Below are positions 6,005 to 35,023 of a stretch of 48,549 nt of DNA, one piece after another. The notes beneath the pieces were generated by a model. That model was not told the origin of the DNA. It saw nothing but the letters and a program-made list of their open reading frames with translations, and ran no database searches. The stretch spans positions 1 through 48,549 of the forward strand of contig CALGKJ010000153.1 in NCBI GenBank assembly GCA_937930535.1. Direction: 5' to 3'. How positions within the stretch are numbered: position 1 is the first letter of the stretch; each line of letters opens with the position of its first letter. The position numbers and the translations under genes are program-made. The DNA is from an uncultured Clostridia bacterium. Lineage in GTDB: Bacteria > Bacillota > Clostridia > Lutisporales > Lutisporaceae.

Positions 6005-6147
6005 AAGGATTGTCCTTGGTACATTATAGATTAGCAACTCTAAAACTCAAAATACTTTTCGTTAAGAGTTACTAATCTATTTGTGAAAAACAACTAGAAG
6101 TTTTAATTTTGAAGTTGTTTCTCTATATCAATGACAATCCTTTTTTA
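6005..6147 (+). terminator. Terminator of the pspA operon, split by a repeat element
   Basis: AAGGATTGTC at 6005-6014 is the exact reverse complement of GACAATCCTT at 6133-6142, which runs into a T-run. A 10-bp terminator stem with a normal short loop would be expected; instead the arms are 118 bp apart. The material between them is a complete double-hairpin repeat (6026-6127). The simplest reading is that the repeat landed in the terminator loop. Confidence 0.6.
6026..6127 (+). repeat. Double-hairpin repeat, subtype A, copy 1
   Basis: Two adjacent hairpins. In the first, ATAGATTAG-C-AACTCT (6026 onward) pairs with AGAGTT-A-CTAATCTAT (ending 6080). In the second, AAACAACT pairs with AGTTGTTT and the copy ends TCTCTATA at 6127. 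Related copies lie at 7288-7388, 24038-24133 and 32494-32606. The element is non-coding. Confidence 0.7.
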
Positions 6148-7162: not shown

Positions 7163-7287
7163 TAATAGACTTTTACTTGCGTATTCTATGGCAGCAGATA
7201 ATATTAAAGAAATAATTAGAAAGTATGCACATGAAGATGGAATTTTCATAAACGAGTTTTCCCAAAATTATAAAAAACTATATCTTT
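7163..7287 (+). other. Gene-free stretch with a short unassigned ORF remnant
   Basis: A short frame (ATG 7188 to TAG 7287-7289, 33 residues, charged and helical, open upstream to about 7160) looks like a gene fragment but I cannot assign it. Its last bases touch the repeat that begins at 7288, so the repeat may have truncated it. Confidence 0.25.
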
Positions 7288-7388
7288 AGATAACCAACTC
7301 TAAAACTCAAAAAACTTTTCGTTAAGAGTTGCTAATTTCTTTGTGAGAAACAACAGGAAAAATTCAATTTTGAAGTTGTTTCTCTATA
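7288..7388 (+). repeat. Double-hairpin repeat, subtype A, copy 2
   Basis: Begins AGATAACCAACTC and shares the internal CTTTTCGTTAAGAGTTGCTAAT with copy 1. Its second hairpin is GAGAAACAAC...GTTGTTTCTC ending CTATA at 7388. The first arm reads GATAACC rather than GATTAGC, so its first hairpin is less perfect than in copy 1. Confidence 0.7.
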
Positions 7389-7593
7389 GTGGAGGTCACT
7401 TTTATTCGATTAATAAAGTTCATAAATAATGCTCTTGGCACCAGCCTAGTGCATTATTTTTTTCCAGTCATAGCTTAGAGCAAAATTATAACTATCCCAT
7501 AAATAAGTTAGACTCTATGGTTGCTTCCCTATAAATATATCAAATATGGCACATAATAAATTTAAGAATGATTAGAGGGAGGCGGGCAGTCTA
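7389..7593 (+). other. Intergenic stretch with terminator and partial subtype B repeat
   Basis: AAATAATGC (7424-7432) and GCATTATTT (7451-7459) followed by TTTTT make a terminator. At about 7495-7534 the segment ending GGTTGCTTCCCTATA resembles one arm of the subtype B repeats at 21960 and 23414, so it is probably a degraded copy. The rest holds the leader of the histidine kinase gene with GGGAGGCGGG upstream of its ATG. No other gene is seen. Confidence 0.4.
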
Positions 7594-21913: not shown

Positions 21914-21959
21914 AATAAATCACAGGGATTGTTTGAAGTGCTTATGAACATAATAATAT

Positions 21960-22070
21960 ATATGGGGAAGCAACCACAAAACTTAACTTATTCAAGGGTT
22001 AGTTATTGCTTCCCTTCTAGGTTTTTAGCTTTAGTATAATTTGAGTTTTAAGCTAAAAACCCTATACCAC
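21960..22070 (+). repeat. Double-hairpin repeat, subtype B, copy 1
   Basis: The first hairpin is GGGAAGCAA (21965-21973) with TTGCTTCCC (22006-22014). The second is TAGGTTTTTAGCTT (22018-22031) with AAGCTAAAAACC-c-TA (22050-22064), one bulge. A second copy with the same order and orientation lies at 23414-23518. The pair brackets the MFS transporter gene. Confidence 0.7.
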
Positions 22071-22090
22071 AAAATATTAAGGAGATGCTT

Positions 22091-23351: not shown

Positions 23352-23413
23352 TAAAAATGCTGGTTAGGGGATCTGGTTGAGAGTCATATATTATATACAA
23401 GCTTAATATAAAT

Positions 23414-23518
23414 ATAGGGAAGCAGCTATAAAACTTAGTTTATTCATAAGCTGGTTATTGCTTCCCTTCTAGGTTTTTAGCTTGGAATAATCTAAGCTTT
23501 AAGCTAAAAAACCTATAG
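23414..23518 (+). repeat. Double-hairpin repeat, subtype B, copy 2
   Basis: Starts TATAGGGAAGC and ends CCTATA. The hairpins are GGGAAGC...GCTTCCC and TAGGTTTTTAGCTT...AAGCTAAAAA-ACCTA. The stems match copy 1 closely while the loops differ, as expected if structure is conserved. Confidence 0.7.
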
Positions 23519-23586
23519 CTTATACAAGAAATATTCAAAATAAAGAGCTTGGCAAACAGCATATAATATGTGAAGGGAGTATTGCT

Positions 23587-23970: not shown

Positions 23971-24037
23971 TTTTATAGCTTTTCTGTATGGATGATTATA
24001 TAATGGTTTTGGTACAATATATGAGAAACATATTATG

Positions 24038-24133
24038 GAGAAACAACTTCAAAAATAAGCTTATTAAGTTGTTTCTCACAAAGAGATTAGCAACTTTTAA
24101 CGAAAAGTATTTTGAGTCTTAGAGTTGGTTATC
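24038..24133 (-). repeat. Double-hairpin repeat, subtype A, copy 3 (reverse orientation)
   Basis: Reads GAGAAACAACTT...AAGTTGTTTCTC, then GATTAGCAAC...GAGTTGGTTATC, the reverse complement of the order in copies 1 and 2. It ends 21 bp before the msrA start codon, so it lies in the msrA leader. Confidence 0.7.
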
Positions 24134-24154
24134 GATACAAAAGGAGCTGTAGCA

Positions 24155-24721
24155 ATGAATAATACAAAGGTTAATCAAGCATATGAAGTGGCAATATTTG
24201 CAGGCGGATGCTTTTGGTGTATGGTTTCGCCCTTTGACATACTGGATGGCATAAAGGAGGTAAAGTCGGGCTATATAGGAGGGCACAAGGAAAACCCCAC
24301 CTATAAGGATGTAAAATCCCAGACCTCGGGACACTACGAAGCTGTAAAAATAGTTTATGACCCATCAGTAATAAGCTATGACAAGCTTTTGCAGGCATTT
24401 TGGAGACAAGTAGACCCCACCGATGAGGGCGGACAGTTTCAAGATAGAGGAGAGTCCTACAGAACCGCTATATTTTATACCACAGAAGAACAAAAGCAAA
24501 AAGCACAAGCCTCTAAAAAACAAATGGACGAGTCAAAAAGATTCGCAGATCCTATAGTAACACCCATATTAGAGGCAACAACCTTCTACGATGCTGAGGA
24601 ATATCATCAGGACTTTTACAAAAAGAGTCCTATAGAGTATAAAGAGGATAGAAAAATTTCCGGAAGAGACGAGTTTATAAAAAAATATTGGGGCGAGGAG
24701 TATTATGACATATATGATTAA
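24155..24721 (+). CDS. msrA: Peptide methionine sulfoxide reductase MsrA
   Basis: 188 residues. The N-terminal catalytic motif GGCFWC is at about 17-22. It is followed by [46 protein letters not shown] and YRTAIFY, all standard MsrA blocks, and EEYHQDFY near the end. It reduces methionine-S-sulfoxide in oxidised proteins. No MsrB domain is fused. TTG 24125 is in frame but lies in the repeat; ATG 24155 follows AAAGGAG by 8 bp. A deleted second copy of its 3' end lies at about 26548-26610. Confidence 0.93.
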
Positions 24722-25287: not shown

Positions 25288-26439
25288 TTATTGATTATAT
25301 CCATTAATGCGAATATATCTAAACTCTGCATAGCTATAATCTTCTAATTTTTTATCTCGTACAGGTGAAGAATGCTGTGTTAATAGCGGCAATCTTGAAG
25401 TATACCAGCTTGTATATGTACCTGTTACTACTGCACTATGACCATAGTCTGAGGCTCCTGGGAACTTGAATTGGACAATATCACCGTTTTGAGGTGCATC
25501 TGGAAGACCATTTATATATACAGAAACATTTGGACCACCTGTATCGGTATTTGCGCTAGCATAACTATGGAACGCTACCACTCCTGTCCATGACGAAGTC
25601 CAGTTATCATTTGTCCAATTGGTATCATTATTACCAGTATAATACCAATTGCTAGTACCGCTAGTATCATTTGTTATCCCACCTGCTCTAAGTGCCTATG
25701 AAATAAAATTTGTACAGTCATAATTTCCGGGATACTGTTCAAAATTTATATAGTACGGATTATATTTTGTTTTTGCGGTATCTGTATAGTCATAATTATT
25801 ATATGCGTAGTTATAAGCGTTAGTTCTATTATATGATCCAGTAGTAAGAGTTGTCATTGTACGTTCGATGTTTTCGTCAGGTGTATTTGATAGATTTTTA
25901 ATGTCTACATAATTTTTCTTTGTTGTTTTTTCTAATTCCTCATATGTAGTATGCTCTAAAACCATATCTAAATCATCATAGAATATATCTTCAGCTATTT
26001 TCCATGTATCATCTAATAGTGATAAGGTTATATTGTGTTTAATAGTGCTATCAGTAGTTACTCCATCGCTATGTATTTGCTTCATATATTCTGTTACGCC
26101 AACATATGCATTGTTATTAACGATCTTGATATCATCAAAAGACAACTCAATTTGACAGTCTCTATATATTCTGTTCTTAAGTTTCATATCTTTTAAATAG
26201 TACTGAAACTTCTTATCTTGTTTAACTTTAGTTTTACTCTGAGGTAAAAAGAAGTTATCTAAGTTAGGTTGCTTTTGGTCTTTAAAAATACTTTCTTTTG
26301 AATCAAAATATTGTTTCAATTTTTCTTTAATGGCATAATTACTTAAATCATTGTTTATTGAAGATGCTGATACAAAGTGTATTAAGAGTGTACTTAACAA
26401 CAAAACAAGAACAAGTATTAACGATATTTTTTTCTTCAC
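25288..26439 (-). pseudogene. Secreted amidase-domain (Amidase_6-like) protein, interrupted by one in-frame TAG
   Basis: A 383-codon gene with a signal peptide (KKISLILVLVLLLSTLLIHF, cleavage near VSAS), an NTF2-like N-terminal region, and a C-terminal putative amidase domain. That domain contains the repeat-rich NAYNYAYNNYDYTD and PYYINFEQYPGNYDCTNFIS, then GGITNDTSGTSNWYY, and after it GDIVQFKF and YGHSAVVTG with the catalytic-type His. Codon 248 (25696-25698) is TAG exactly where homologues read NF-I/V-S-Gln-A-L. The frame is intact on both sides, so a single CAG-to-TAG change explains it. The start is GTG 26439 after AAGGGGAG. Such proteins hydrolyse cell-wall or peptide amide bonds. Confidence 0.75.
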
Positions 26440-26547
26440 CAAAATCTCCCCTTTTGTATAAAAAATTTGAAATGTATACATATTATAACAATAATTTATT
26501 TGCCTGTAAATAGCAAATGGTAATACATACATATTACCACGATTGGA

Positions 26548-26666: not shown

Positions 26667-26716
26667 AAGAGTCATGTATAAAAGGAATCTAATTCCTAAT
26701 TTATACATGACTCTTA
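26667..26716. terminator. Long perfect hairpin between msrA remnant and peptide gene
   Basis: AAGAGTCATGTATAAA (26667-26682) pairs perfectly with TTTATACATGACTCTT (26700-26715), and AGGAAT/ATTCCT continue the stem, leaving a tiny loop. It can act as a terminator for the minus-strand peptide/regulator transcript. The stem of about 21 bp is unusually long for a simple terminator. Confidence 0.5.
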
Positions 26717-26785: not shown

Positions 26786-26935
26786 TTACTTTTGAACCGT
26801 ACTAACATACGGAGCTGTAATATTTTTTAAGTGTATAGGCTCTCCCTCGTCTACTGCAAAAGCAATATTTGTTATAGATATAAGCAATATTGAGATTAAT
26901 AACAGTGTCAGCATGGATTTAATAATTTTTTTCAT
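26786..26935 (-). CDS. Secreted signalling pro-peptide (Phr-like), partner of the TPR regulator
   Basis: 49 codons, MKKIIKSMLTLLLISILLIS then ITNIAFA and a 22-residue polar tail VDEGEPIHLK...VSTVQK. A basic start, a hydrophobic core and the AxA cleavage site AFA give a clear export signal. The gene begins inside the 3' end of the TPR regulator (17-bp overlap) with GGGGG (in the regulator's codons) about 8 bp before the ATG. An exported short peptide overlapping a Rap/RRNPP-type TPR gene is the hallmark of Phr, PapR, NprX and clostridial Qsp peptides. The active form would be a C-terminal oligopeptide cut after secretion and re-imported; the exact residues are unknown. Confidence 0.7.
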   Translation of the reverse strand: MKKIIKSMLTLLLISILLISITNIAFAVDEGEPIHLKNITAPYVSTVQK

Positions 26936-28190
26936 ATCTAATGCCCCCATATTCTAATAATTTCTCATAAATTAATCCAAGACATTCACGTAAGCCGCTA
27001 ATATAATCTTCGCTGTTAGATGCCTTGGTTAAGTCTAATATTACACGAGTAAGGTCTTTTAGGCAAGGCAAATTATATGCTGAATTTGTTATAAAACTCT
27101 TAAGTCTAAATATTAAAGTATATTTATTTATGTACTTACCTTTAGTATTTAACAGTGCATCAAAATACTCCTTATATGAGCTTTCGTTTCCTAAATCCAT
27201 TTGTATTTCTGCAGCAGTCTGAATACAAGTTAAATGATTAGATAAGTCGTATTGCTTTTCATTTGTTTCTATGGCTAAATCAACATATTTTTGGGCATTT
27301 TCATAATCCTTCATTTTTCTATATAGTTCACCTAAATTGTTGTATGTTACTACGGCAGGTGATAAATTAACCTCATCAGGATAGGTTAAGGCTTCATTAT
27401 AGTAATGAAGTGCATCTTTAAACTTATTTATCTTTTTATAGCTCAGCCCTATATTACAATTTGCCCCTGCCTTCTCAAAATTCTTAGTAGCATAATCTGC
27501 CGCCTTTTCAAAATGTTCTCTTGATGTACGATATCTAGCACCATATAAATATGTAATGCCTCTCCAATAATAGTAGTAATACATGGTATTATTGGACAGC
27601 TTGCTTTTATGTATTTGTACAAGTTCATCTACATATTTAAACCTCTTTTCAGCTTTTTCACGCATATATTCACAATAAAAAACATATGCCTGCTCACACC
27701 AGTAAAACACCTGCATATCTATTTCGCCTTTAGGCAGTTCCTCAATGGCAATCTCATAACATTCAATGGCTCTGGTAATCTTATTGGTATAATGGTAGTT
27801 TCTTGCCATTGCTCTGTATAACATAGCAACCTCTAGCTGCATTCCTTCCTTTTTGCAAAGCTTGCGAAGCTTCTTAATGGTATACTCATCCTCCACATCG
27901 TTATACAGCCTTATGTTATCATATATACTATTTACAAGGGCTTTTAGCTGTCCCTCCAATGTCAGGACTACCTCGTAATAGCTGATATTTAGTGCTATGG
28001 TTATAGCACATCTAAAGTTGTCTGACTCTATTTTGTCTCTGCTGAGATAGGACTTAAAGGTATTAAATTGTATGGACATATTAGATTTAGCATAAAAAGT
28101 CTCTATATCCGCATATCGCTCCAGTATAGCTTTTTTTACCTGAGGACCTTCACCAAGTATTTTAATATCTTTTCTCGTAATCTTTTTCAT
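26919..28190 (-). CDS. TPR-repeat regulator of the RRNPP/Rap type
   Basis: 423 residues. The N-terminal region (1-70, TRKDIKILGEGPQVKKAILE to NFRCAITIALNIS) is helical and could be a degenerate HTH, though I see no clear Xre motif. From about 110 on there are at least six tetratricopeptide repeats, for example YRAMARNYHYTNKITRAIEC, CNIGLSYKKINKFKDALHYY and YNNLGELYRKMKDYENAQKY. RRNPP proteins bind imported oligopeptides in the TPR groove and change DNA binding or phosphatase partners. ATG 28190 is preceded by GGGTGG. A promoter lies at 28221-28249. The secreted peptide gene overlaps its end. Confidence 0.8.
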   Translation of the reverse strand: MKKITRKDIKILGEGPQVKKAILERYADIETFYAKSNMSIQFNTFKSYLSRDKIESDNFRCAITIALNISYYEVVLTLEGQLKALVNSIYDNIRLYNDVEDEYTIKKLRKLCKKEGMQLEVAMLYRAMARNYHYTNKITRAIECYEIAIEELPKGEIDMQVFYWCEQAYVFYCEYMREKAEKRFKYVDELVQIHKSKLSNNTMYYYYYWRGITYLYGARYRTSREHFEKAADYATKNFEKAGANCNIGLSYKKINKFKDALHYYNEALTYPDEVNLSPAVVTYNNLGELYRKMKDYENAQKYVDLAIETNEKQYDLSNHLTCIQTAAEIQMDLGNESSYKEYFDALLNTKGKYINKYTLIFRLKSFITNSAYNLPCLKDLTRVILDLTKASNSEDYISGLRECLGLIYEKLLEYGGIRYEKNY

Positions 28191-28220: not shown

Positions 28221-28249
28221 ATTATAGCATAATATGGCAATAGCAACAA
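28221..28249 (-). promoter_or_regulatory. Promoter of the TPR regulator/peptide operon
   Basis: On the minus strand TTGTTG (28249-28244) and TATAAT (28226-28221) are separated by 17 bp, ending about 30 bp upstream of the regulator start. Confidence 0.55.
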
Positions 28250-28376
28250 GGCACGATTTGTGCGAATTTTACTATTTTTTCCTTTTATGATAAACTATCG
28301 TATTTTAGAATAAATAAAAGATACCTCATAAAATTTTAGGCTTATAAATTAGGGAATAAAATGTGTAAATATATGG

Positions 28377-32398: not shown

Positions 32399-32493
32399 GT
32401 TCTGAAATAAAAAGCATAAAAAAAGATGCGCCTGTTATGTAGTACCAGGTTAGCTTTATTTTGCTTTTTTGATTTTCACCTTATTAAAATGCC

Positions 32494-32606
32494 TTAGCTA
32501 TATAGAGAAACAACTTCAAAATTAATATTTCCAGTTGTTTCTCACAAAGAGCTTAGAGACTTTTAGTTGAAAAGTATTTTCAACTTTAAAGTGTCTTAGC
32601 TATATA
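32494..32606 (-). repeat. Double-hairpin repeat, subtype A, copy 4, with flanking direct repeats
   Basis: The order GAGAAACAACTT...AGTTGTTTCTC, then a hairpin around AGTTGAAAA-gta-TTTTCAACT, matches copy 3. The second hairpin has diverged while keeping pairing. TTAGCTATATA occurs at both ends (32494-32504 and 32596-32606), which could be a target-site duplication or a part of the outer stem. Confidence 0.65.
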
Positions 32607-32623
32607 TTACAGGAGGGAAGCAT

Positions 32624-35023
32624 ATGTTTGAAAAATCATCAAAAATAAATAATATCCTTAAAAATCTTCATAATACAGTAAATTACAATATAGATCCATA
32701 TAAAAAAATAATAAAGGAAATAAACCGCATTAAGCTGGATTCCTTAACCGACTGTCAGCTTAAGCAAATGTCAAAGTCCCTTAAGGACAGAGTCAGAAAA
32801 GGAGCTGTATTAAAGGACTTGCTGATCGAAGCCTATGCTTTGACCAGGGAGGTATCTGCGCGTGTATTAACAATGATACCCTTTGACACACAGCTTATGG
32901 TGGGTATAGCTCTGCATGAGGGAAAAATATCAGAAATGCAGACTGGAGAAGGCAAAACTCTGGCGGCAGTAATGCCTGCATTTTTAAATGCCCTTACAGG
33001 TAAGGGTGTCCATATACTAACCGTTAATGACTATCTGGCTCAGAGAGATGCAGAGCTTATGAAGCCAGTATATGACTTTCTTGGGGTCACAGTCTCCTAT
33101 ATCAAGGAAGGTATGGATACAGTCCAAAGACAAAAAGCTTACTCTGCCGATATAACTTATCTGACTGCCAAGGAAGCAGGCTTCGACTATTTGAGAGACT
33201 TTCTTTGTACAGAAAAGGAAAATCTGGTACACCGCCCATTTAATTATGTAATTATTGACGAAGCAGACTCTATTCTAATTGATGAAGCTAGAGTACCCCT
33301 TGTGATTGCAGGAAATGTAGAAGGAGATTATCACAATAAACAAGGACTGTCTGCTATTGTGAGAGAGCTTAGGGCTAATTTGGATTATGAAATAGATCAG
33401 TATGAAAGCAATGTATATCTTACTGATACAGGGCTTATACATGTAGAGGATATTTTGGGATGCGGAAATATTTATGATCCTCAAAATCTGGAGCTGTTGA
33501 CGGCACTTAACTGCGCACTTCATGCTGAGCTGCTGCTTAAAAAGGATAGAGACTATATCGTAAGAAACGATAAAATAGAGCTTATTGATGAGTTTACAGG
33601 TCGTATAGCTGATAAGCGGCATTGGCAGGATAATCTTCATGCCGCTGTGGAAGCCAAGGAGGGCTTACAGCCCCAAGCCAAGGGGGTTATATTAGGATCC
33701 ATTGCCTTGCAGTACTTTGTAAAGCTGTACCCAGTAATATCAGGTATGACAGGAACAGCTAGGACAGCAGCAGCGGAGCTTAGAGACTTTTACGATTTGG
33801 ATGTAGTAGTTATACCAACAAATAAGCCATGTATACGCAAGGAGCATCCGGATTTAATCTTTACCCATAAAGAGGCAAAGGAAAAAACAATTATAAGCAA
33901 AATAAAGAAGCTGCATATGACAGGTCAGCCGGTGATGGTCGGTACAGCAAGCGTTGAAGAATCAGAAAAGCTGGCAGAAGAGCTGATAAAAGAGGGACTA
34001 ACCTGCAATGTACTTAATGCTAAAAATGACGAGATGGAAGCGAAAATAATCGCAAAAGCGGGTCAGATAGGTGCAGTAACCGTATCAACAAATATGGCAG
34101 GCAGAGGTACAGACATAAAGCTGGGCGGAGGCAATGCGGAGGAACATGCTGCGGCAGAGGCATTAGGAGGCTTGTATATAATAGGAACCAGCCGTCATGA
34201 AAGCCGCAGGATAGACAACCAGCTTACAGGAAGAGCCGGACGGCAGGGTGATCACGGAGAAAGTCAGTTTTTTGTCAGTTTTGAGGATGAATTGGTAAAA
34301 CGCTATGATATTACAAAGCTTTTTCCTTTCAGCAGTGTACCTGATAAACAGGAAAGCCCTATAGATAATCCAAGTATAAGAAAAGAGCTGGAAAGAGGAC
34401 AGCGTATTATCGAAGGCTATAACTCTGATGTAAGAAGACAGCTATATAAATATTCCTTTATAATCGAGCAGCAGCGAAGAATAATACACAGTAAACGTCA
34501 GGACATATTAATGGACAAAATGACTCCAAAGCTTTTAGAAGTCAAGGCGGCAGAACGTTATTCACTGCTTTGCAGACAGCTTGGAGCAGAAACATTGCAA
34601 AAAGCTGAAAAGCAGCTTGCCTTGTACTATATAAACAAATGCTGGGCAGACTATCTGGACTATATATCATATATACGTGAAAGCATACATTTGCAGGTAA
34701 TAGGAAAAAACAGCCCTCTGCATGAATTTAATAAGCTTGCCGTAGAGGCTTTTGTAAAGCTGCTGGAGGAAATAGAAACTGAAATAGTAGATAAATTTAA
34801 TACTGTAGAAATTACAAGGTATGGAATCAATATGGAGAAGGAAAACCTCAAAGCTCCATCCTCAACCTGGACATACCTCATTAATGACAGCGCAGACCAG
34901 TTCAGCAATCTGCCGCACCTGATAAAAGCAGCAGCAACTTATATATCAGGCACACTCTTTAGCTTACAGTCACTTTATAAATGTATTTTGGGCAAAAAGA
35001 AATTTGACCAAAAAGAGCATTAG
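32624..35023 (+). CDS. SecA-family preprotein translocase ATPase, accessory (SecA2-type) paralogue
   Basis: 799 residues with the SecA DEAD motor: Walker A MQTGEGKTLAA (about 107-117), TVNDYLAQRDA, Walker B VIIDEADSILIDEAR, ISGMTGTA, TNMAGRGTDIKLGGG, and QLTGRAGRQGDHGESQFF. The preprotein cross-linking and helical scaffold domains are recognisable, but the C-terminal zinc tail (CxCx8CH/C) is absent and the last 60 residues are atypical. The N-terminus is also shorter than in a housekeeping SecA. No SecY2 or Asp genes adjoin it. It probably pushes a subset of exported proteins through SecYEG; the exported-protein island just upstream offers candidates. Confidence 0.85.
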   Translation: MFEKSSKINNILKNLHNTVNYNIDPYKKIIKEINRIKLDSLTDCQLKQMSKSLKDRVRKGAVLKDLLIEAYALTREVSARVLTMIPFDTQLMVGIALHEGKISEMQTGEGKTLAAVMPAFLNALTGKGVHILTVNDYLAQRDAELMKPVYDFLGVTVSYIKEGMDTVQRQKAYSADITYLTAKEAGFDYLRDFLCTEKENLVHRPFNYVIIDEADSILIDEARVPLVIAGNVEGDYHNKQGLSAIVRELRANLDYEIDQYESNVYLTDTGLIHVEDILGCGNIYDPQNLELLTALNCALHAELLLKKDRDYIVRNDKIELIDEFTGRIADKRHWQDNLHAAVEAKEGLQPQAKGVILGSIALQYFVKLYPVISGMTGTARTAAAELRDFYDLDVVVIPTNKPCIRKEHPDLIFTHKEAKEKTIISKIKKLHMTGQPVMVGTASVEESEKLAEELIKEGLTCNVLNAKNDEMEAKIIAKAGQIGAVTVSTNMAGRGTDIKLGGGNAEEHAAAEALGGLYIIGTSRHESRRIDNQLTGRAGRQGDHGESQFFVSFEDELVKRYDITKLFPFSSVPDKQESPIDNPSIRKELERGQRIIEGYNSDVRRQLYKYSFIIEQQRRIIHSKRQDILMDKMTPKLLEVKAAERYSLLCRQLGAETLQKAEKQLALYYINKCWADYLDYISYIRESIHLQVIGKNSPLHEFNKLAVEAFVKLLEEIETEIVDKFNTVEITRYGINMEKENLKAPSSTWTYLINDSADQFSNLPHLIKAAATYISGTLFSLQSLYKCILGKKKFDQKEH

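Follow-up and report, generated by a model that had tools for sequence, protein, structure and literature searches.

In the AloR-AloP systems of Paenibacillaceae, a receptor with an HTH and a TPR domain is directly followed by a signal-peptide ORF of 32-50 aa (PMC7425212). P. terrae carries 40 Alo receptors, 27 of them with a peptide (PMC7425212, Voichek et al. 2020), and cross-effects between Alo systems have been described (PMC7425212). Qsr-Qsp in C. acetobutylicum and QssR-QssP in C. saccharoperbutylacetonicum likewise have a signal-peptide ORF behind an HTH + TPR receptor (PMC7376267, PMC7206700), and AimR-AimP again combines an HTH + TPR receptor with a pro-peptide. For Rap, loss of the HTH is thought to have been the founding step (PMC12700828).

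The window analysed here, a stretch of 48,549 nt of DNA from an uncultured Clostridia bacterium, contains a receptor/pro-peptide pair that has this layout in common with AloR-AloP, Qsr-Qsp, QssR-QssP and AimR-AimP. A preliminary description of the window had proposed a receptor resembling those of RRNPP systems, paired with its own secreted pro-peptide, and this proposal is well supported by the anatomy of the genes, by paralogs in the same genome, by relatives and by the predicted fold. We conclude that the pair is very probably an RRNPP-type receptor/pheromone cassette that serves as one cell-cell signalling channel, with the pheromone most likely formed by the first residues of the secreted tail. 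Systems of this kind are already known, with comparable expansions in Paenibacillus (PMC7425212). What is new is the subfamily and its presence in uncultured Clostridia, an N-terminal DPxG layout with repeated pheromones, a family-restricted promoter element and repeated HTH loss.

Anatomy of the receptor/pro-peptide pair

The following features were located at the pair, all on the minus strand:

28221..28249, minus strand: putative promoter of the receptor, read from the sequence; the same layout occurs 5' of most paralogs
26919..28190, minus strand: receptor (regulator) gene, 423 aa, read from the sequence; the genome has 32 related loci
27969..28151, minus strand: XRE-like HTH domain at the N-terminus (residues 14-74), predicted from AlphaFold2 models and structural matches
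26946..27959, minus strand: TPR superhelix at residues 78-415, the predicted peptide-binding domain (Pfam TPR, AlphaFold2, matches to Rap, NprR and AimR)
26944..26948, minus strand: ribosome-binding site GGGGG of the peptide gene, read from the sequence and lying inside the receptor gene
26786..26935, minus strand: pro-peptide gene, 49 aa; 24 of 29 paralogous loci, and relatives, have a homologous ORF
26855..26935, minus strand: signal peptide, residues 1-27, ending in ...AFA^, read from the sequence; the AFA/SFA site is kept among paralogs
26789..26854, minus strand: predicted secreted tail, 22 aa; the presumed processing would yield a pheromone from the first 6-8 residues, VDEGEPIH, at about 26831-26854
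26667..26716, minus strand: hairpin with a 15-bp stem downstream of the peptide gene, a possible operon end without a clear T-run

The receptor and pro-peptide genes have 17 bp in common, at 26919-26935 by coordinates recomputed from the sequence. The 423-residue minus-strand TPR protein, the 17-bp overlap and the 49-aa ORF that were first noticed in the window proved exact in every detail when the sequence was rechecked, and the AFA site, the 22-residue tail and the position of the peptide's ribosome site within the regulator gene were all confirmed. The signal peptide of the 49-aa protein, MKKIIKSMLTLLLISILLISITNIAFA, is of textbook form, and the cleavage junction reads ...NIAFA^VDEGEPIHLKNITAPYVSTVQK, so that the 22-aa tail is VDEGEPIHLKNITAPYVSTVQK. 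Purine-rich ribosome sites of the AGGGGG type occupy the same position at most paralogs. Upstream of the receptor, the putative promoter consists of a -35 element TTGTTG (28244-28249), a 17-nt spacer and an extended -10 element TGcTATAAT (TATAAT at 28221-28226); at the other end of the unit, many paralogs carry a hairpin with a T-run at the place equivalent to that of the window hairpin.

A GCAC-N5-GTGC dyad at 28251-28263, just upstream of the receptor -35, is a possible operator; none was seen in the paralog upstream regions examined. Just downstream of the pair, an amidase-like secreted gene (25288-26532, minus strand) contains an in-frame TAG (CTNFIS*ALRAGG), beyond which the same frame continues. 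Amber recoding was considered for this gene and for some paralogs that also have an in-frame TAG, and was rejected since no PylS scored above the cut-off and one receptor paralog, L026, proved to be a frameshifted pseudogene; given the lack of a PylS match, the TAG of the amidase gene is probably a nonsense mutation. The window further contains dispersed imperfect palindromic repeats of ~105-125 bp, MITE- or REP-like, which also occur in most other contigs read from this genome. They form two families, A (6008-6131, 7266-7391, 24009-24161 and 32484-32624) and B (21951-22077 and 23404-23524), and no Rfam match was found anywhere in the window, these two families included.

Predicted fold of the receptor

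Pfam TPR_12/1/2/8 scored above cut-off in the receptor; Pfam, NCBIfam and PHROGs otherwise gave only TPR-level or insignificant matches, with no HTH profile and no named RRNPP family. An AlphaFold2 model built from six input sequences reached a pLDDT of 91.3 and a pTM of 0.84. Its best matches in VIA-align include RapJ-CSF (Z 24.5 over 316 residues, rmsd 4.2), phi3T Rap (Z 24.5) and RapF (Z 23.6), and NprR (Z 21.6 and 20.6) and AimR (Z 18.6) are likewise among them. TPR superhelices are a common fold, and TPR proteins outside RRNPP likewise scored high (MalT, Z 24.4; LGN-type, about 20). Thus the fold supports peptide sensing but does not prove it.

When residues 1-78 were modelled alone (pLDDT 84.8), the DNA-binding domains of SinR, ImmR, PrgX, PlcR and ComR were matched at Z 6.7-7.9. 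Foldseek on the HTH region returned probabilities up to 0.98, with no E-value below 0.1. Profiles and model together predict a receptor with a C-terminal TPR superhelix, and an N-terminal XRE-type HTH is present at the level of the predicted fold only. This HTH-like N-terminal domain distinguishes the window receptor from Rap, which has no HTH and is characterized by an N-terminal 3-helix bundle.

Receptor copies in the same genome

The genome is a draft of 4.69 Mb in 252 contigs, 97.2% complete with 3.7% contamination. A genome-wide search gave 36 receptor matches, 34 of them strong, and these correspond to 32 receptor loci once split hits are joined and L010 and L023, two contig-end fragments of one gene (100% over 141 bp), are merged; this count is approximate because the draft is fragmented. 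The window locus is one among these roughly 32, not a lone pair.

At 24 of the 29 loci with a readable 3' flank, inspection found a signal-peptide ORF after the receptor. An adjacent short ORF with a Sec signal peptide, a trait of RRNPP(A) systems, therefore occurs at the window and at 23 further loci of its own genome, and in relatives as well. The homologous peptide ORFs span ~41-73 aa and most lie at -16 to +6 nt from the receptor stop; six loci have tandem double peptide ORFs, while five receptors are orphans. An automatic test for a simple signal-peptide ORF at -35..+30 nt from the stop was positive for 27 of 36 receptor genes from this genome and relatives, versus 3 of 261 control genes (other genes on the same DNA), and these three look spurious. 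The receptor-peptide pairing is not due to chance. With ~32 receptors, 24 of which are accompanied by a peptide gene of their own, this genome is among the most signal-rich of the bacteria seen.

In a maximum-likelihood tree, 13 full-length paralogs of this genome, including that of the window, form one well-supported clade and thus reflect a lineage-specific expansion. Two receptors are present in G001, a genome of the same genus that is 80% complete. Assembly duplication was rejected as the source of the copies, the closest full copies, L030 and L031, differing strongly (dS 0.38). A mobile-element origin was also rejected: there were no matches on phages or viral contigs, and plasmid matches were of a generic TPR kind only. 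Within neighbourhoods of up to 15 kb, no gene family recurs beside the pairs save at one syntenic locus, probably ancestral, that carries DUF1003 and an RNA-methyltransferase gene. The duplicated unit is therefore the pair plus its promoter, and shared neighbouring target genes were rejected.

Two receptor genes of this genome, L012 (contig C61) and L026 (C40, a frameshifted pseudogene), are broken next to intact peptide genes, and are possible senders without receivers.

Distribution of the family and loss of the HTH

In kinship and genome searches, close homologs were confined to the family of the window's own genome, a lineage of Clostridia. Beyond that family, 391-398 genomes sampled from the class and phylum yielded partial, TPR-level matches only, the first class/phylum scan having scored at most four candidates per genome. 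From these sequence searches, the subfamily appears confined to one Clostridia family and amplified in this species. The small ORF, which the preliminary description had singled out for a check in relatives, is present after most of the receptors examined (2/2 in G001, 2/2 in G003, 2/3 in G005 and 2/3 in the MAG PL23a_bin.55), and the pair is thus not refuted by this check. L086 (JAJGRE010000002.1) is G005:C8, and 'Calditrichales bacterium MX18-03' and G005 are the same record; the kinship search puts it in the window's own clostridial family, and its NCBI taxon label looks wrong.

Four receptors in G003, G009 and G005 (L042, L065, L069 and L071) lack the HTH. They fall into two separate clades, which points to two independent HTH losses. 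A start-codon artefact was rejected as the cause, because the upstream frames hold no HTH and promoter-like sequence directly precedes the short start. Both HTH-less receptors of G003, L042 and L069, are followed by pro-peptides with repeated putative pheromone segments.

Position of the pheromone in the pro-peptide

We aligned 34 tails at the cleavage site. D is present at +2 in 22/34, D at +5 in 28/34, P at +6 in 33/34 and G at +8 in 22/34, and the resulting xDxxDPxG element directly after the cleavage site is the strongest conservation across genera. At the other end of the tail, only a terminal K/R is frequent (23/34). The window tail deviates from the element, with E in place of D at +5 and H in place of G at +8; it has no W, and DPWG occurs in three paralogs.

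In L042 and L069, the first 6 or 7 tail residues are repeated at the exact C-terminus. The two copies in L042 (VDDVGL...VDDVGL) differ by four nucleotides, all synonymous, and those in L069 (VHDTTPD...VHDTDPD) have four synonymously different codons and one nonsynonymous difference. Repeats such as these arise in 12/200,000 and 27/50,000 shuffled tails. In the window's own genome, the L029 pro-peptide contains its DPYN element twice.

Since xDxxDPxG sits at the tail start and L042 and L069 copy that same segment to the C-terminus, the pheromone most likely comprises the first 6-8 tail residues, here about VDEGEPI, and the C-terminal end is a less likely site. The repeats come from relatives with HTH-less receptors, a caveat for the HTH receptor of the window. 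The preliminary description had placed the signal at the C-terminal end of the tail, and on this point it looks wrong.

A pheromone at that end of the tail in the same system, such as one formed by the final 5-9 residues of APYVSTVQK, would nevertheless follow the usual Phr/AimP/AloP layout, most known RRNPP pheromones being C-terminal (PMC10075063; PMC9765709); phi3T AimP, for one, ends in its own signal SAIRGA. In own-genome paralogs the C-terminal half is also partly kept, with a P-K/I/Y-x motif besides the terminal K/R. We regard this alternative as rather doubtful, given that the strongest cross-genus conservation is N-terminal and that the C-termini of L042 and L069 are themselves copies of the N-terminal segment. 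Pheromones away from the C-terminus also have precedents, in the internal AEPTWGW of QspB (PMC7376267) and in PhrH and PhrK (PMC7425212). A DPG motif is widespread in mature peptides of the AimR type and of the Paenibacillaceae subfamily 08 (PMC12700828), a parallel to the tails described here that is suggestive only.

Conserved positions spread over the whole 20-residue tail, which is longer than a typical pheromone of 5-8 residues, and a cysteine is frequent at +11, as might be expected if the small secreted peptide were an effector, bacteriocin-like or acting at the cell surface, under control of the adjacent TPR regulator. Such a role is improbable: modification, transport and immunity genes do not recur next to the pairs, peptide and receptor were duplicated together at 24 loci, and in some pro-peptides a short segment is repeated, as it is in known pheromone precursors (PMC9765709).

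In the tandem tails of four loci, 23.8 synonymous changes over 49.5 sites compare with 24.2 nonsynonymous changes over 184.5 sites (odds ratio 6.2, p = 5e-7). This purifying selection shows that the small ORFs are translated genes. That they are non-functional or passively inherited open frames is hardly credible: all copies do have one ancestor and some are degenerate (the third at L011, the second at L017), but the synonymous excess is strong and the motif is kept across genera at 25-40% receptor identity.

A putative promoter element shared among receptor genes

In most paralogs of the window's clade, TTGtaa-N17-TGcTATAAT precedes the receptor. When the whole genome was scanned for CATAAAATGCTATAATA, allowing one mismatch at most, eight sites were found, and all eight lie 5' of receptor paralogs. 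The same scan found two sites and one in two other clostridial genomes. The window's own promoter fits the shared element only loosely. This family-restricted element suggests autoregulation or cross-regulation among the copies, for which Alo offers a precedent (PMC7425212); it could also be inherited similarity without regulation.

Proposed mechanism

The promoter, receptor, pro-peptide and hairpin would make up a self-contained operon. The 49-aa pro-peptide would leave the cell through Sec, signal peptidase would cleave it behind AFA, and a second cut would free a short pheromone from the first 6-8 tail residues (VDEGEPI or near). This pheromone would be re-imported, presumably via an Opp permease; the genome encodes four oligopeptide-type binding proteins (PF00496), which would permit peptide import. 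Binding of the pheromone to the TPR superhelix of the adjacent receptor may then change DNA binding by the N-terminal HTH. The most likely direct targets would be the operon's own promoter and the promoters of its paralogs, since it is only there that the common promoter element was found. The 32 receptor loci would owe their origin mostly to duplication within the lineage; each has a tail variant of its own, several have two peptide genes and some are orphan receptors. Export, the second cleavage, import, peptide binding, DNA binding and regulation are all steps that we infer.

A more far-reaching reading, which we put forward tentatively, is that of a new RRNPP subfamily whose N-terminal xDxxDPxG pheromone is released by signal peptidase and one trim, and whose ~32 receptors in one uncultured clostridial species form a single cross-regulating network of ~24 signal variants through a family-specific promoter/operator common to the operons, with HTH-less branches that have arrived at the Rap layout more than once.

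Comparison with known systems

Dozens of parallel peptide channels per genome are reported only from Paenibacillaceae in the literature that we found. With another expansion now seen in a distant, uncultured lineage, different lineages can be compared when asking why one cell needs so many channels. The code by which a TPR groove recognizes its peptide could be learned from the ~24 receptor/peptide pairs that this one genome holds within a single family, a natural data set that is equally suited to asking whether an operator is common to paralogous channels. Relatives whose pheromones are repeated provide a concrete, cheap prediction of the mature peptide, and the pheromone layout is the part most worth testing.

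The subfamily appears undescribed; it was compared with AloR, Qsr and QssR through their published descriptions and with NprR at the level of fold. Its kinship with Rap, NprR, AimR and Qsr, as named in the preliminary description, is one of analogy. AloR-AloP resembles it in the massive expansion within a genome, the orphan receptors and the occasional double peptide genes. Unlike the present system, whose host belongs to the class Clostridia by its kinship to named Clostridia MAGs, Alo is reported essentially only in Paenibacillaceae; moreover, no spo0E-like or other recurrent gene was found downstream here among ORFs of at least 60 aa. The AloP13 pheromone is the last six residues, SHGRGG, whereas here the conserved element lies right after the cleavage site.

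Qsr and QssR have 8 and 5 paralogs per genome, far fewer than the ~32 here (PMC7376267, PMC7206700). Qsp, compared by description, has a conserved L-P-W near its C-terminal end, in contrast to xDxxDPxG at the tail start; the AEPTWGW of QspB, with its conserved P, is loosely like the DPWG of three paralogs. AimR structures matched the receptor model at Z about 18, and HHalign against a single phi3T AimR gave a probability of 34.7% over 57 columns. AimR-AimP are phage systems, whereas no relatives of the present pair were found on the phages or viral contigs searched, and phi3T AimP, with a C-terminal signal and no DPG, is unlike the tails here. The highest structural similarity is to Rap-Phr and NprR-NprX (RapJ, Z 24.5; NprR, 21.6). 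In HHalign, Rap of pLS20 aligned with the generic TPR part only, at 17% identity over 192 columns, and it is the HTH-less members in relatives that repeat the Rap layout.
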